This document shows positions 24,027 through 30,011 of a stretch of 34,328 nt of DNA, piece by piece. The notes under the pieces are model-generated. The model did not search any database, was not told where the DNA came from, and saw only the letters and a list, made by a program, of their open reading frames with translations. The stretch comes from a virus, in the IMG/VR virus record IMGVR_UViG_3300039203_000129, positions 1 to 34,328 of that record; one strand, 5' to 3'. A program made the translations under genes and the position numbers. The first letter of the stretch is position 1; each line of letters starts with the position of its first letter.

Positions 24027-25916
24027 TTACGCGAAGCCCATGGCGTTCAAGATGGCTCGCTTCTGTGCCTCGCGACGGGTCTCCGCGGTGTCCTCCGGCG
24101 GCTTGCCGCCGCGCTCTACCTTTTCCATAAAGGCGTCGTCCTGGCGGTACCAGCCGAAGGGCAAGCCCCCCTGCTGCTGCGCCGCTACGTAGGCGTAGAC
24201 CTCGGCGTGGGCATAGTGGTCGGGTCCGTTTTGCTCGTAGTGCGGCGTCGGGTTGCCCCGGCTGTTGTCGGCGATGACCCGGATCGGGCTGCTCATGTGA
24301 CGGTAGTACTCGCCGTGGCCGGCGCGGTCGGTGTCGCCCCCGAGCGCGTAGGCGCCCTGGGGCAGGATCAGCCGCCGTTGGGCGACCATGGCTTGTACGG
24401 CATCGAGCGCCGCCGTCCGGTTGATCTTGACGACGGGTTCGTCCTTTGACCAGGTGCAGAGTTCGTTTGCCTGGTCGGCTCCCCAATTGGGGTAGTACGC
24501 GACGGTGACTCTGCCGGGCCAACGCTCGGCAAACTCGCGGGCCTTACGGGTTTCGGGGTTGGCGTCGATAACGCAGGTCGAGACGTTGAAGCGCACCATC
24601 AGGGCGTCCAACTCCTCAAACGTCCGGACGCTATCCACGAGGGCAGCGCGGGCGCGGCCGTCGCGTTCGGCGGTGTTGATGCGGATGTGTAGGCGCGCGC
24701 CGACGTCCACGCCCATGACACTGTCCTTGGCGGCGGTAGGCAGGGTGCTAAAGGTGTCATCCGACATACAGGCATCCAGCTGTGCGGCGTCCATAGCCCC
24801 CCCGGCGGGCAGCCACGGGATGCCGCAGTCGGAGTTGTAGAACTCCTGGGTCTCGCTGGCGCTGGTACGGCCGTCGAGCACGCGCCGCTGCGTAGCGGCC
24901 AGGACGGCCAGGTCGACGCGCGGCGAGAGCAGCTTATTGACGTGGTAGCCCTCCCATTGCCTGCCGGGAGAGGCGGCGATCCACTCGCCGGGGGCCAGGC
25001 GAGCGGCGGTCATGTCGGCGTTGCAGGCGGCGCAGCGCACGGTGGCCGTCGTCGGGTCAAGGTGGGTCATGACCTGGAGGCATTGCCAGGAGCCGCAGCC
25101 GGGGCAGCGGCTATGGTAGGCGCGTTGGGTGGATTGGTCCCAGAGGACACCCATCTCGTCCTTGGGGTAGCGCGGCGTGCTGCCGGCGCGTTGCCAGGCG
25201 AAGGCCGAGGAGCCGAGACGGCGCGCGGCCACGTCCAGCGTGCCGGCCGTGTACTGCGCTACCTCGTCCAGGCAGAGCAGGTCGGCGTCTACCGAGAGCA
25301 AGGAGTCGCGGTTCTGGGAGCCGCGCAGGTAGAGGAAGCCAGGGCCGATCTGGCGCAAGCCGACGTTGGCCGTCGCCTTCCCCACGCGCCGCCCCGGCGT
25401 CGCGGCCTCCCCCTCCGGGCTGCCCCTGCCGGTACGCGCGCGCAGGTAGGGCGACTCGTCTACCGGCTTCTGGACGCGGGCGCGCGAGAAGTCGCCCATC
25501 TGGGCAGCTTTCGGAAACAGGTACATGACGTTGCCGCGGCCGCCGGCGCGGCTGTCGGCAGCCCAGAAGGCCAGGTTGATGAGCCACTCGGAGATAGCGA
25601 CCTGCGCCGCCTTCATGACGACGACGTTGGGATGGGTAGAGCGGTAGAGGTCGAGCAACGGAGCCGAGACGGTGAAGGGCTGGCCGTTGATGATCCTATG
25701 CTGCGTGCTCCAGGCCAGGAGGTCGAGGCTTGGCGCGGCGTTGGCGTCCAGCGGGGGCAGGAGCTTCCGGCGCCGTAGTTCGGTCTCCAACCCCAAGCGC
25801 CGGCGTACCAGTTCCGCTTCCATCTGCTGGGAGGGAGGGGTCAAAGGCGAGCGGGGCAAGACCGAGGGCGCGGGCTTCAGCAAGGAGCTGGTCGGTGGGG
25901 AGGTCAGCGTAGTCAA
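24027..25916 (-). CDS. Terminase large subunit, GpA family
   Basis: Up to 629 residues. ATPase: an atypical Walker A MKAAQVAISEW (101-111) and Walker B LLCLDE (213-218). A zinc ribbon follows, CPGC (271-274) and CAAC (295-298), as in the lambda gpA family. Nuclease: GVDVG with Asp404 and CVIDAN with Asp451, plus a late HYAHAEVYAY. It cuts and pumps genome DNA into the prohead. The TTG at 25916 has GAGAAGG six bases upstream and gives a 221-base overlap with the small terminase; ATG 25823 is an alternative that drops a proline-rich 31-residue lead with no good ribosome site. Confidence 0.9.
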   Translation of the reverse strand: MTTLTSPPTSSLLKPAPSVLPRSPLTPPSQQMEAELVRRRLGLETELRRRKLLPPLDANAAPSLDLLAWSTQHRIINGQPFTVSAPLLDLYRSTHPNVVVMKAAQVAISEWLINLAFWAADSRAGGRGNVMYLFPKAAQMGDFSRARVQKPVDESPYLRARTGRGSPEGEAATPGRRVGKATANVGLRQIGPGFLYLRGSQNRDSLLSVDADLLCLDEVAQYTAGTLDVAARRLGSSAFAWQRAGSTPRYPKDEMGVLWDQSTQRAYHSRCPGCGSWQCLQVMTHLDPTTATVRCAACNADMTAARLAPGEWIAASPGRQWEGYHVNKLLSPRVDLAVLAATQRRVLDGRTSASETQEFYNSDCGIPWLPAGGAMDAAQLDACMSDDTFSTLPTAAKDSVMGVDVGARLHIRINTAERDGRARAALVDSVRTFEELDALMVRFNVSTCVIDANPETRKAREFAERWPGRVTVAYYPNWGADQANELCTWSKDEPVVKINRTAALDAVQAMVAQRRLILPQGAYALGGDTDRAGHGEYYRHMSSPIRVIADNSRGNPTPHYEQNGPDHYAHAEVYAYVAAQQQGGLPFGWYRQDDAFMEKVERGGKPPEDTAETRREAQKRAILNAMGFA

Positions 25917-26289
25917 TCGTGACCTTCTCTCGGTACTTACGGGGGTTCCTCGCTTTCAGGAGGAAGATGAGCAAGGTGTCGCTGTACTCGGTTTCCACGA
26001 GCGTGTCGATGAGGGCGCCCCCGGCGTAGGCTCGCTTCTCGTGCTTGACGCCGGTGACGGCCCTCTCCCAGGCGGCTTGCTCCAACACGTCCTCGGCCAT
26101 CAGTTCCGCTTCGCGGTATGCCAGGCCGAAGCCGGGATCTTGCTGGAGCCAGAAGTAGACGTTGCGCCGGGGGGTACCGGTCTGGCGGCATGCGCGGCTG
26201 ACGTTACCCGTCACGCCGAAGGCGTTGAGGAACGCTTCCTTGAGCGCGGCGGTCTGGACGTGGGTAGCCATGTCTGTTGGCTCGCTCAT
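25696..26289 (-). CDS. Terminase small subunit
   Basis: 197 residues. Helix-turn-helix near residues 27-55 (TGNVSRACRQTGTPRRNVYFWL) matches the DNA-recognition domain of small terminases. A central oligomerisation part has AELMAEDVLEQAAWERAVTG and LIFLLKARNPRKYREKV, the latter very typical of the family. The last 50 residues are Pro/Ala/Gly rich and overlap the large terminase in another frame. Start ATG overlaps the methyltransferase/PLP gene stop by four bases (ATGA). It binds the packaging site and hands DNA to the large subunit. Confidence 0.88.
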   Translation of the reverse strand: MSEPTDMATHVQTAALKEAFLNAFGVTGNVSRACRQTGTPRRNVYFWLQQDPGFGLAYREAELMAEDVLEQAAWERAVTGVKHEKRAYAGGALIDTLVETEYSDTLLIFLLKARNPRKYREKVTIDYADLPTDQLLAEARALGLAPLAFDPSLPADGSGTGTPALGVGDRTTAPEAPAPAGRQRRAKPRPPGLEHAA

Positions 26290-28649
26290 GCGGCTTCGTC
26301 AAGGGGAGCGGTGTCGTCGGCTTGCTCGGCCATGTCCGCGGCGCTGGGGTCGGGCAGGGCATACTGGCCTTCGACGGCGCCGGCCGCGGCGGTAGCGGCG
26401 CGCGCGTCCCCCTTCAGGAACACCAGGATTTGCTGGTGCGTCTTGCCGAGCTTGCGGGCGACGGTGAATTGCTTGCCCACGCGCACGGCGAGCGAGCCGA
26501 TAGCGGTCACGAGGATCGCTTCGTTGTAGAGGGCCATACCGGCGTCGGCAAAGGCGGCAATGGTGTCGGAGACGAAGTTGCGGTAGTTGCCGGTGCGCTT
26601 GCTGCGTATGTCGCCTACCACCCAGACGGCGAAGCGATCATCCTTAAGGCGCGCCGCTGCCTTGGTAATGATGTCGCGGTAGACGACGAGGAAGTCGTCG
26701 TAGGGCATCGTGGAGAGGTCGGCGGCGTCGTCGCTATACCGCTCCAGGTCGGCGTAGGGCGGGCAGGAGAACAGCAGGTCGGCGTCGAGGTCGGTGCGGA
26801 GCGGTAGCTCGCTGGCGCTGTCGCCGGCCAGCCATACCGGGTCGGGATGGCTGGCCATGCCGTCTACGGCGGTCGCCGTGGCGGTCTCGCGGATGCCGAC
26901 GCACCAGAGCACGTCGCCCGCTTGGAGGTACGGCAAGCACTTGGCCTCATAGATGGGGTCAAGGGCCACGCCGTCGAGCGTCGTTACCGGCGCATGGGCA
27001 TGGTAGTCGAGCTTGCTGGTGACGAGGGTCGCCTGCTTGGCCCAGCCGGTCGGGGCATACTTCGCCAGGCGCTTTGTCGGTGAGGCTCCGACGCAGACGC
27101 CGAGGACGGGCAGGGTGTTACCGGCGCGGCGCAAGCCGTGGAGGATACCGGCCAGGGACATGCCGAAGCCAACGGGTACGACGAGGCGGGTAGCGTTGCC
27201 GGGGAGGTTGACTATCTGGCTGCTCGTCTGCTCGACGGCGACCTCGTGCTCCATGCCGAACGGGATCTCGCGCCAGCCGCGCGCCGCGGCGTCTTCCCGC
27301 GCGCGGGCGCTGATGACGACATTATGGCCGGGGACGTGCTGGACGATCTCGGCGCCGGCTGCTTGAGCGCTCCGTAGTTCCGGCGTGAGGGTGCCGGAGG
27401 GGACATGCACCCGGCACGGGATACCGAGCTCCTTGGCGATGTGGGCGACGATGTTGACTTGCAGGGATTCCTTGCTGCCGGCGGTGGTGAGGCCGGTTGC
27501 TCCCTGAGCCAATGCCCAGCAGGAACGGACCTTACCTCCGGTCACCCCGGCGATGGTGCAGGTATCGTCGCGCTTCAGCCAGACGGCGCCGCCGTTCGGT
27601 AGGCGATGCTCCTCAACGGGGGTGAGGGCGTCGGGGGCGACGCCTACCGGGGGAGGCGCGGCCAGCGCCGGGACGGCGCTGGCCGGCGTGGCGTCCTGCG
27701 GTAGCCGGGCGAGGATAGCGTCCCATTGGTCGCGGTTCGCTTGCACCTGACGCTCGCTGAGGTCGATGCCGACGTACTGGCGGCCGAGCAAGGCGGCCAC
27801 GACGCCGCGTACCGAGCCACCGGCGAAGGGGTCAAGGACGATGGCCCCCGGCGCGGAAAACCACCGGTAGGCGAGTTCGCAGACGACGGGATCGAAGATG
27901 GAGGTACCGCTTTGCTTGGCGGCGCCGGGGTGAGCGGTCAGGAATTCCGGCCAGGAGACTTCGCGGCCGAGCTTCGCTTGGTACGCTTCCTTCTCCTTGT
28001 AGGCGCTAATGGGCTGCGAGCTAACGGAGTAGGTCAGGCCCTTGGCCGTCTTGTCGTTGTCATTGCCGCGGCCGATCTCGGAGACTAGGCCGATGCCGAG
28101 CCAGGCTCGCTTGCGCTGCAGCCATGGCCCCTGGCGGGCGTCGAGCACGGAGAAGGGCACGATGCCGAAGCGGTCGGAGAGGGAAAGGAAGGCATCGGCG
28201 GGGTCGCCGGCTGCGCCGCCCTGGCCTTCGCCGGCTACGGAAGCGAGCAAGTCAGCCACGCGCTGCTCGTCCAAACCGGTGAGCGAGAGGTCGGCGTCGG
28301 CGGCGTCGAGGGTAGCAAGCAGCGTTGCCAGCTTGTCGTCGTCGTCCTCGCCGTACTCGCGATTGTCGCGCACCATGCGCTGCATCTCCTCGATGGGGTC
28401 CAGGTCTTCGTAAACCACCGGTAGCTCGGTCCAACCGAGGGCGGCGGCTGCTTGCAGCCGCATGTTGCCCATGTAGACGGTGCCGTCGTAGCGGGCGCCG
28501 AGCGGTCGCTGCCAAAGCATGGTCGGGTCGCTTGCCAGCGCGTGTTGCAACGCTTGGAGCTTACCCTGATCGATGCGCCGGGGGTTTTCCGGGTGGGCGT
28601 GGAGCCGCTCGATGGGGACGAGGACGGCGAGGTTGGGGTCAAGAGGCAA
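26286..28649 (-). CDS. ParB-like / DNA methyltransferase with inserted PLP-dependent (fold type II) domain
   Basis: 787 residues from TTG 28649 (AAGGAG seven bases upstream). Order: ParB/Srx-like domain (about 5-135: PIERLHAHPENPRRID, GNMRLQAAAALG); a phage-methylase segment FGIVPFSVLDARQGPW (161-176); motif I DPFAGGSVRG (273-282) and GIDLSE (294-299); then about 335-590 a domain like ACC deaminase/D-cysteine desulfhydrase with LKRDD, GGKVR (Lys373 as PLP lysine), TTAGSKESLQVN and VPVGFGMSLAGI; then methyltransferase motif IV SCPPY (628-632) and GKTHQQILVFLKG. The PLP domain thus splits the methyltransferase between motifs II and III/IV. Likely acts on phage DNA; a modification beyond methyl transfer is inference. 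Eleven bases overlap the upstream methyltransferase. Confidence 0.85.
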   Translation of the reverse strand: MPLDPNLAVLVPIERLHAHPENPRRIDQGKLQALQHALASDPTMLWQRPLGARYDGTVYMGNMRLQAAAALGWTELPVVYEDLDPIEEMQRMVRDNREYGEDDDDKLATLLATLDAADADLSLTGLDEQRVADLLASVAGEGQGGAAGDPADAFLSLSDRFGIVPFSVLDARQGPWLQRKRAWLGIGLVSEIGRGNDNDKTAKGLTYSVSSQPISAYKEKEAYQAKLGREVSWPEFLTAHPGAAKQSGTSIFDPVVCELAYRWFSAPGAIVLDPFAGGSVRGVVAALLGRQYVGIDLSERQVQANRDQWDAILARLPQDATPASAVPALAAPPPVGVAPDALTPVEEHRLPNGGAVWLKRDDTCTIAGVTGGKVRSCWALAQGATGLTTAGSKESLQVNIVAHIAKELGIPCRVHVPSGTLTPELRSAQAAGAEIVQHVPGHNVVISARAREDAAARGWREIPFGMEHEVAVEQTSSQIVNLPGNATRLVVPVGFGMSLAGILHGLRRAGNTLPVLGVCVGASPTKRLAKYAPTGWAKQATLVTSKLDYHAHAPVTTLDGVALDPIYEAKCLPYLQAGDVLWCVGIRETATATAVDGMASHPDPVWLAGDSASELPLRTDLDADLLFSCPPYADLERYSDDAADLSTMPYDDFLVVYRDIITKAAARLKDDRFAVWVVGDIRSKRTGNYRNFVSDTIAAFADAGMALYNEAILVTAIGSLAVRVGKQFTVARKLGKTHQQILVFLKGDARAATAAAGAVEGQYALPDPSAADMAEQADDTAPLDEAA

Positions 28650-29454
28650 GAGGGGTCTCCTTGGCGACGACGTAGGCGTGCAGGCGTTCGCTCGCTTGCC
28701 AGAAGGTCGGGGCATCCAGTTCGATGCCGACGAAGGACCGTCCTTCGCCCATGGCGGCCAGGCCGGACGAGCCGGAGCCGGCGAAGGGGTCAAGGACGGT
28801 GGCGCCGGGGGGGCATGCCAGGCGTATGAGCCAGGCGGCGAGCGCCGGGGGGAAAGCGGCGGTATGGCCGGGAGAGCGCAGGCGGCTGGTGTTGCCGCCA
28901 ACGGGGATGGTGATGACGTTCGTGCAACGGGCGATGCCGTCGCGGTAGCCGTCCGAGTGACCGCCTACTCGCTCGATACCGGGGTTGGCCGGCCGCATGC
29001 CGATGAGCTTGCTCGGCGTGCCGTTGGCCTTCGGGTCGGAGTAGGGCCGGCGGCTCTGGCTGAACCAGAGCACCCGTTCCCAGGCGCGCCGGGGGAAGGC
29101 ATTAGGGCCGAGCGGGGGAGCGTCGGGCTTGCACCAGACGAGTTCCTCGTGCTCGAACCAGCCGGCTTCGCGGACGGCGAGCCGGGTACGGTGCACGTAG
29201 TCGGCCATGACGCCGTCGCGGATGTGCTCGCGGATGTTGATGAGGACGCTTGCTCCGGGAGCAAGGGCTGGGCGTAGGGCGTCCAGCCAGGCGACCGTCC
29301 ACGCCGGGTAGTCCGCTTCCTCGATGCTGGCATAGAAGTCTTTGCGTTGCATGGCATACGGGGGAGAGGTGACGACGCAGCCGATGCTGGCCGGCGCGAG
29401 GTCCGGGAGCAAGGTCAGGGCGTTACCGAGGTACATGGTCCAGGCCGAGTCCAA
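28639..29454 (-). CDS. Site-specific DNA methyltransferase, beta-class order
   Basis: 271 residues from TTG 29454, chosen because GAAGGA lies seven bases upstream and the family motif YLGNALTLLPDL begins right after. A GTG at 29652 opens the frame further but has no ribosome site and the added sequence looks non-coding. Motif IV TSPPY (29-33) precedes motif I DPFAGSGSS (222-230), the beta-class order; SPPY is most often seen in N4-cytosine enzymes though N6-adenine is possible. A GHTAAFP segment (196-202) is also conserved in the family. No restriction enzyme gene is next to it, so self-protection or modification of phage DNA is likely. Overlaps the following gene by 11 bases. Confidence 0.88.
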   Translation of the reverse strand: MDSAWTMYLGNALTLLPDLAPASIGCVVTSPPYAMQRKDFYASIEEADYPAWTVAWLDALRPALAPGASVLINIREHIRDGVMADYVHRTRLAVREAGWFEHEELVWCKPDAPPLGPNAFPRRAWERVLWFSQSRRPYSDPKANGTPSKLIGMRPANPGIERVGGHSDGYRDGIARCTNVITIPVGGNTSRLRSPGHTAAFPPALAAWLIRLACPPGATVLDPFAGSGSSGLAAMGEGRSFVGIELDAPTFWQASERLHAYVVAKETPLAS

Positions 29455-30011
29455 GCGAGCGTCCTTCGTTGCGAGAGCAAGGGGGGGGAGCGAGCGGCGA
29501 GGCACGCGAGCGCGCACCCGGCCGGCGGGTATGGCATAAGTGTCGGGCGAGGGAGCGGAGGGCGTGCTAGGAATGTCGGCCGCGCGGCCTCGCCGGGGAG
29601 CCGTTTCCGGCGCGGAAACCGGCGAAAAACGCACCCCGACGTTGCCCGACACGCCGCGTTAGATTTCGCTTTGGCCTATACTGGCAGGCTTTTGGAAGCC
29701 GCCCAGAAACGCGCCACGATGCCCCAGGCCGGTTGGGCGACATTTGGGCAGGGGCGTCAGGCCAACGATGCCTCGCGCTGCCGGCAGCGGGGGCGTGTGG
29801 GGCAACGTCGCGCGACAGCGCGCCGCCCCGGCGCGAGGTTGTAACCGGCGACGGTCGTTTTGGAACGGGCGTGTCACGCTTGCTGAGGGAGGGACCGGCG
29901 TGCTTCCGGCCGGCGCGGTAGCCGGCCAGGCGAGGGGTGAAACCGCCAATAGCCCTTGCTCCCTGACCCCACAGGGAGCAAGGGCGAGGGTAGCGAGCGG
30001 CGCTTCCTTTC
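29455..30011 (-). other. 557-base intergenic stretch without a supported gene
   Basis: It holds a strong 14-bp hairpin at 29952-29985 serving the small-gene operon to its right, and the untranslated lead of the methyltransferase operon. Short frames on either strand lack ribosome sites or convincing sequence. A TATAGG box near 29680 has no good -35, so I do not call a promoter; one for the methyltransferase/terminase operon may still lie here. Confidence 0.6.
29952..29985 (-). terminator. Hairpin terminator after the 30.0-30.8 kb small-gene operon
   Basis: A perfect 14-bp stem (left arm begins GCCCTTGCTCCCTG, six-base loop) starts 26 bases after the stop at 30012. The U tract on the minus strand is weak (GGCGGTTTC follows several bases later), so termination may be partial. 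Confidence 0.6.

Follow-up and report, generated by a model that had tools for sequence, protein, structure and literature searches.

The stretch of DNA analysed here, hereafter the window, comprises 34,328 nucleotides of IMG/VR record IMGVR_UViG_3300039203_000129, a viral record that encodes a terminase, a portal, a major head protein and a tape-measure protein. It carries a 787-amino-acid gene at 26286..28649, on the minus strand like every other feature described below, whose TTG start overlaps the stop of the gene upstream. That upstream gene (28639..29652) encodes a second DNA methyltransferase, of the ordinary N6_N4 type with an SPPY motif, and is given as a neighbour, for context; a terminase small subunit (Pfam and PHROG) lies directly downstream at 25696..26289, again as context. 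The protein consists of a ParB-like domain, the N-terminal half of a methyltransferase, a PLP domain and the C-terminal half of the methyltransferase. Its ParB/sulfiredoxin-like N-terminal domain (residues 9-140, 28230..28625), already recognised in front of the enzyme by a sequence-only reading of the window, is matched by ParB-like PHROG families over residues 9-143, with E values down to 1.7e-17; Pfam ParB_N scores 14.1 bits on the gene, under its cut-off.

The N-terminal half of the methyltransferase (residues 155-320, 27690..28187; Pfam, PHROG, alignment and model) contains motif II and motif I, DPFAGGSVRG, of which the segment DPFAGGSVR, including Arg281, spans residues 273-281 (27807..27833). 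The C-terminal half (residues 600-765, 26355..26852; PHROG and alignments) contains motif III, GDS, and motif IV, SCPPY, at residues 628-632 (26754-26768). The distance from DPFAGG (273-278) to SCPPY is about 355 residues, close to the 350 first estimated, and the gap is indeed filled by a fold-type II PLP domain (residues 340-590, 26880..27632; Pfam PALP, AlphaFold2 and Foldseek); the range originally given, 26880-27647, corresponds to residues 335-590. Pfam N6_N4_Mtase (PF01555) matches at 48.5 bits against a cut-off of 26.7, with the match split into two stretches, and PALP (PF00291; 49.2 bits, cut-off 35) matches residues 352-575 between them, while the match to phrog_498 (DNA methyltransferase), at 4.6e-101, bridges the insert and covers residues 241-768. 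The uninterrupted methyltransferase of Mycobacterium phage Vincenzo aligns as two blocks, residues 155-320 and 603-748, and skips the PLP part. Motif IV is CPPY in every aligned member, not the (D/N/S)PP(Y/F/W) by which amino-methyltransferases are recognised. The phrog_498 enzymes Listeria B054 gp77 and Enterococcus phiFL3A gp36 are the same methyltransferase, with both halves and a ParB domain in front, and that of phiFL3A lies near terminase genes, as in the window; unlike the window gene, neither has the PLP domain.

Structure prediction, proposed together with the nesting as a check on it, produced the nested PLP fold at high confidence. In an AlphaFold2 model of the whole protein, block-mean pLDDT is mostly about 85-97 across the PLP domain, and the insert lies between a helix at residues 299-315, after motif II, and the motif III strand at 605-608. 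The model thus confirms the nesting and sharpens the predicted insertion point to between methyltransferase motifs II and III. The PLP domain modelled alone reaches a pLDDT of 95.8 and a pTM of 0.92; Foldseek superposes it on 4d9e/4d8t with a TM score of about 0.8 (0.81 by query length for D-cysteine desulfhydrase). A chance or frame artefact is ruled out by the single open frame, by homologs with and without the insert and by the high-confidence model. The protein is a ParB-like/DNA methyltransferase-fold enzyme with a nested, apparently complete, compact PLP enzyme.

The lyase/deaminase type first assigned to this domain holds, in that it is most closely related to D-cysteine desulfhydrase and ACC deaminase, sharing with them the fold, the Schiff-base lysine, the Ser78 equivalent and the tyrosine. 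ACC deaminase (AcdS) has the diagnostic residues K51, S78, Y295, E296 and L322 (PMC4048297). In an alignment to Bradyrhizobium AcdS the first four correspond to K373, S395, Y567 and E568 of the nested domain, and the L322 site holds Val, at a domain end that is aligned loosely. At the position of E296, D-cysteine desulfhydrases characteristically have Thr or Ser; the nested domain has Glu568 there, as in ACC deaminase. Among NCBIfam models, TIGR01274 (ACC deaminase) is absent at E<=1 and only TIGR01275 is found, at 32.7 bits, far under its cut-off of 289.4. The domain is also shorter, about 240 amino acids against 325-340, and, unlike either enzyme, it is virus-restricted and tied to a DNA methyltransferase. 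By these criteria it is neither of the two enzymes, though similar to both.

The presumed Schiff-base lysine, Lys373 of GGK (27531..27533), correctly numbered from the outset, is Lys in all 94 relatives with a residue there, in a set of 95 sequences. Ser395 and Gln397 are kept in 92 of the 95, and Tyr567-Glu568-Lys570 in all 91 that align over the YEAK segment (residues 567-570, 26940..26951), the counterpart of YEGK in ACC deaminase. The phosphate-type loop VPVGFGMSLAG (residues 491-501, 27147..27179), reported previously as a feature of the enzyme, is present in the window, but the family form is VPVGSGMSLAG; GFGMS in place of GSGMS occurs in the window alone. In all, three substitutions (R393K, P396L and S495F) are found in none of the other sequences, and all fall in presumed substrate or phosphate loops. 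With these changes near the PLP pocket, this particular copy may be weakened. The identical protein (100%) is encoded on two further IMG/VR contigs, which makes misassembly of a single record an improbable source of the changes. These substitutions would fit a PLP fold that, in the window copy at least, has no catalytic role and is re-used for target recognition or folding, and some methyltransferase classes do carry a target-recognition domain inside the catalytic fold. We nevertheless consider this quite improbable, given that the catalytic set is conserved over the 95 sequences, stand-alone genes included, and that the window copy itself retains K373, S395, Q397, Y567 and E568.

A search for the same insertion elsewhere shows that the window gene is one of many. 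Scans of viral contigs returned 46 loci with the whole protein and 147 stretches with a PLP profile. Among 97 non-redundant PLP loci, 54 have the nested arrangement (three of them truncated, leaving 51 complete), six are C-terminal fusions, one is an N-terminal fusion and two are otherwise split; the methyltransferase is adjacent in 14, within the same locus in nine and absent from the locus in 11, three of which have one elsewhere on the contig. Changes between nested and non-nested forms number at least four on strongly supported branches, and 16 on the best tree. The nested form is found in Pseudanabaena phage Pam4 and in Erythrobacter phages R6L and ZS04; Mycobacterium phage Vincenzo has separate methyltransferase and PLP genes overlapping by 35 bases, and in Microcystis phage Mae-JY30 the two are neighbouring genes. 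In a bacterial and archaeal collection of 84,980 species, searched with one conserved motif strict enough to make the count a lower bound, a single PLP relative was found, in Bradyrhizobium, against the 147 in viral contigs, and no match was found among plasmids; the family is almost restricted to viruses. The Bradyrhizobium relative (L053:5687-8753) has a DNA methyltransferase of another family, the N6_Mtase/TaqI/Eco57I type, about 0.4 kb away. On a 257-kb viral contig (L092:7956-9786), a stand-alone PLP gene overlaps a gene for an LPG_synthase_C (lysyltransferase-like) protein, not a methyltransferase.

The joint module of PLP lyase/deaminase and base methyltransferase proposed earlier is supported by this recurrence in several layouts, and the two very probably act together in one DNA-modification module. 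That a PLP enzyme is built into, fused to or placed beside the same methyltransferase in so many phages suggests a putative new amino-acid-type DNA modification. Clustering of open reading frames within 8 kb of the PLP loci, as far as the clusters can be interpreted, gave only packaging- and replication-type genes and shadow frames, and no conserved third hypermodification gene. In the Erythrobacter phages with the nested gene, a PAPS-reductase-like PP-loop gene lies a few genes upstream (L006:1-939).

The ParB domain was considered as a PLP-specific partner and rejected, as it is equally common beside methyltransferases without PLP: it accompanies 45 of 51 methyltransferases paired with a decarboxylase (described below), 30 of 33 solo methyltransferases and 54 of 79 PLP-partnered ones. 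SerK and SbnI are ParB-like kinases of free serine that supply fold-type II PLP enzymes, and on this precedent the ParB/sulfiredoxin domain could phosphorylate free serine, with the PLP domain then using beta-replacement to place the alanyl group so formed on a base. The same counts make such a route very improbable, and it leaves the decarboxylase partner unexplained.

That partner, which is new here and formed no part of the earlier reading, belongs to a sister clade of the methyltransferase, in which the family pairs with a SAM decarboxylase instead and the donor-pocket motif is changed. Two examples are Pseudomonas phage ZRG1 and Croceibacter phage P2559S, whose gene for the same ParB-methyltransferase, here uninterrupted, overlaps one for S-adenosylmethionine decarboxylase. 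Decarboxylase frames overlap or abut the methyltransferase frame in 53 of 53 fetched loci (L132:3956-5801, L134:3098-4739 and 51 more) and in none of the PLP set; the search started from a ZRG1-like entry, so the clade's share of the family is not representative. The three decarboxylase genes scanned are all Pfam AdoMet_dc. AdoMet_dc was found in none of 40 PLP-phage records, and a PLP gene in none of 53 decarboxylase or solo-methyltransferase records in a scan run without a positive control. Motif I changes from AGGSVRG in the PLP group to AGDTVFG in the decarboxylase clade: Arg281, kept in all 79 PLP-partnered methyltransferases, is Phe in 49 of 51, and Gly278 is Asp in 50 of 51, whereas PLP-partnered and solo methyltransferases differ little here. 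Because the Arg281-to-Phe switch is confined in the tree to one well-supported clade, it amounts to roughly one event. None of 23 decarboxylase-phage records has a spermidine synthase, so that, of the phage-encoded enzymes, the methyltransferase alone is an evident user of decarboxylated SAM. A third partner type is seen beside methyltransferases with motif I DCFAGDTQKGL: the gene overlapping them (L168:3422-6158, L172:287-3140) has a PP-loop-like motif, SGGKDCLAT, and no match in Pfam or PHROG.

Without its carboxylate, decarboxylated SAM is well established as an aminopropyl donor. Taken with the decarboxylase partner and the Arg281-to-Phe switch, this leads us to infer that what the family moves onto a DNA base is SAM's amino-acid side chain, and not (or not only) a methyl group, and that Arg281, by its position in motif I, contacts the SAM carboxylate. 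The methyltransferase would take up SAM through motif I, as its homology indicates. Enzymes of the decarboxylase clade would use decarboxylated SAM and deliver aminopropyl; those of the window's clade would use SAM itself, with Arg281 gripping the carboxylate, and deliver 3-amino-3-carboxypropyl. We hold this aminocarboxypropyl transfer to be plausible at somewhat less than even odds. Once the amino acid is on the DNA base, the nested PLP domain would bind it as an aldimine and transform it there, with decarboxylation or some other reaction at the alpha carbon as the likeliest step, and the outcome would be an amino-type base that shields phage DNA from host nucleases. For this full scheme, transfer of the SAM amino-acid arm to a DNA base followed by PLP tailoring, we estimate a probability of roughly 35%. 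Most known fold-type II PLP enzymes act as lyases, deaminases, synthases or racemases, and decarboxylation by one would be unusual, which speaks against the scheme. We also count against it the insertion point, which appears to lie on the side of the Rossmann fold away from the SAM pocket; for this reason, and with a pTM of only 0.48 for the full model, any channelling between methyltransferase and PLP domain would be conjectural.

The main weakness of the amino-acid-arm reading lies in the decarboxylase itself. Phage AdoMetDC/SpeD homologs, of the same Pfam family as the sister clade's partner gene, have been treated as polyamine enzymes, and in phages members of this family can decarboxylate arginine or ornithine in place of SAM (PMC9992855, PMC10407285). 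The first of these papers (PMC9992855) uses neither the term methyltransferase nor ParB, and the second mentions a methyltransferase once, for putrescine N-methyltransferase (PMC10407285).

Another account is that the enzyme is an ordinary N6-adenine or N4-cytosine methyltransferase and that the PLP domain acts on a free D-cysteine-, D-serine- or ACC-like amino acid, carried along as simultaneously useful. The methyltransferase fold with its Pfam N6_N4_Mtase match, the occurrence of solo methyltransferases without PLP, the resemblance of the PLP group's donor pocket to theirs and the small free amino acids used by the nearest PLP relatives all agree with it. The repeated fusion, in three topologies as well as by nesting, points instead to a common substrate or product, and a SAM decarboxylase at the same position in the sister clade would be left without a reason. 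All aligned members also have CPPY in place of the (D/N/S)PPY of amino-methyltransferases. On balance we regard this account as unlikely.

Transfer of the amino-acid arm also leaves a choice of what the PLP domain works on. It might alter the SAM donor at the alpha carbon with the carboxylate kept, the methyltransferase then transferring the altered group, in parallel with the decarboxylase clade and with CmoA/CmoX, in which carboxy-SAM for the DNA transferase comes from an enzyme of its own (PMC12783734). The donor-pocket motif of PLP-partnered methyltransferases, however, equals that of the solo enzymes and is changed in the decarboxylase clade, which makes a modified donor improbable; since PLP-partnered and solo methyltransferases differ so little, the PLP domain probably acts on the product and not on a new donor. 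A PLP domain replacing SpeD as the SAM decarboxylase is likewise disfavoured, as PLP-partnered methyltransferases retain Arg281 and Gly278.

Among known systems, thymidine hypermodification in phages ViI, M6, phiW-14 and SP10 uses PLP enzymes to tailor amino acids on DNA bases, and the sequence-only reading had drawn on this analogy. That pathway starts from 5-hydroxymethyl-dU, and its PLP enzymes are of other fold types. No thymidylate-synthase-family gene (dUMP hydroxymethylase) was found in 22 PLP-phage records, some of which may be incomplete; a thymidine pathway is thus not indicated, and this part of the earlier proposal is not supported. The CmoA/CmoX/CmoY system of Synechococcus phage S-B43 joins a phage DNA transferase to a dedicated enzyme making carboxy-SAM, and resembles the present case in that the transferase has a partner for donor preparation from SAM or for tailoring of the product, with ParB-domain proteins nearby; it differs in its C5-methyltransferase fold, its carboxymethyl group and its amide ligase in place of PLP (PMC12783734). 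With CmoA found in none of 23 PLP-phage records, which may also be incomplete, a CmoA-made donor was rejected.

The nested PLP-methyltransferase is real and recurs among phages; its functional association is strong, and the chemistry proposed for it is conjectural but testable. The belief that such a fusion was new survives in part: we found no paper discussing the pairing of this methyltransferase with PLP or with the decarboxylase, in a search that stopped short of preprints and most subscription journals, but the fusion is not rare and Pam4 gene 70 was already annotated as a PLP enzyme. Together, the aminopropyl clade and the aminocarboxypropyl, PLP-tailored clade may conceivably form a widespread phage DNA alkyltransferase family with a new class of base modification. 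Should this reading be true, it would to our knowledge be the earliest known case of a PLP enzyme sitting inside a DNA-modifying transferase; the enzyme, self-contained and easily expressed and tested, would offer a new enzyme type for DNA labelling. The switch at position 281 would provide a sequence test of the donor for hundreds of phage methyltransferases. Phage SAM-decarboxylase genes beside these methyltransferases, usually read as polyamine genes, would become donor-makers for DNA modification, and phages would be making amino-acid or amine bases straight from SAM, with no hydroxymethyl handle.
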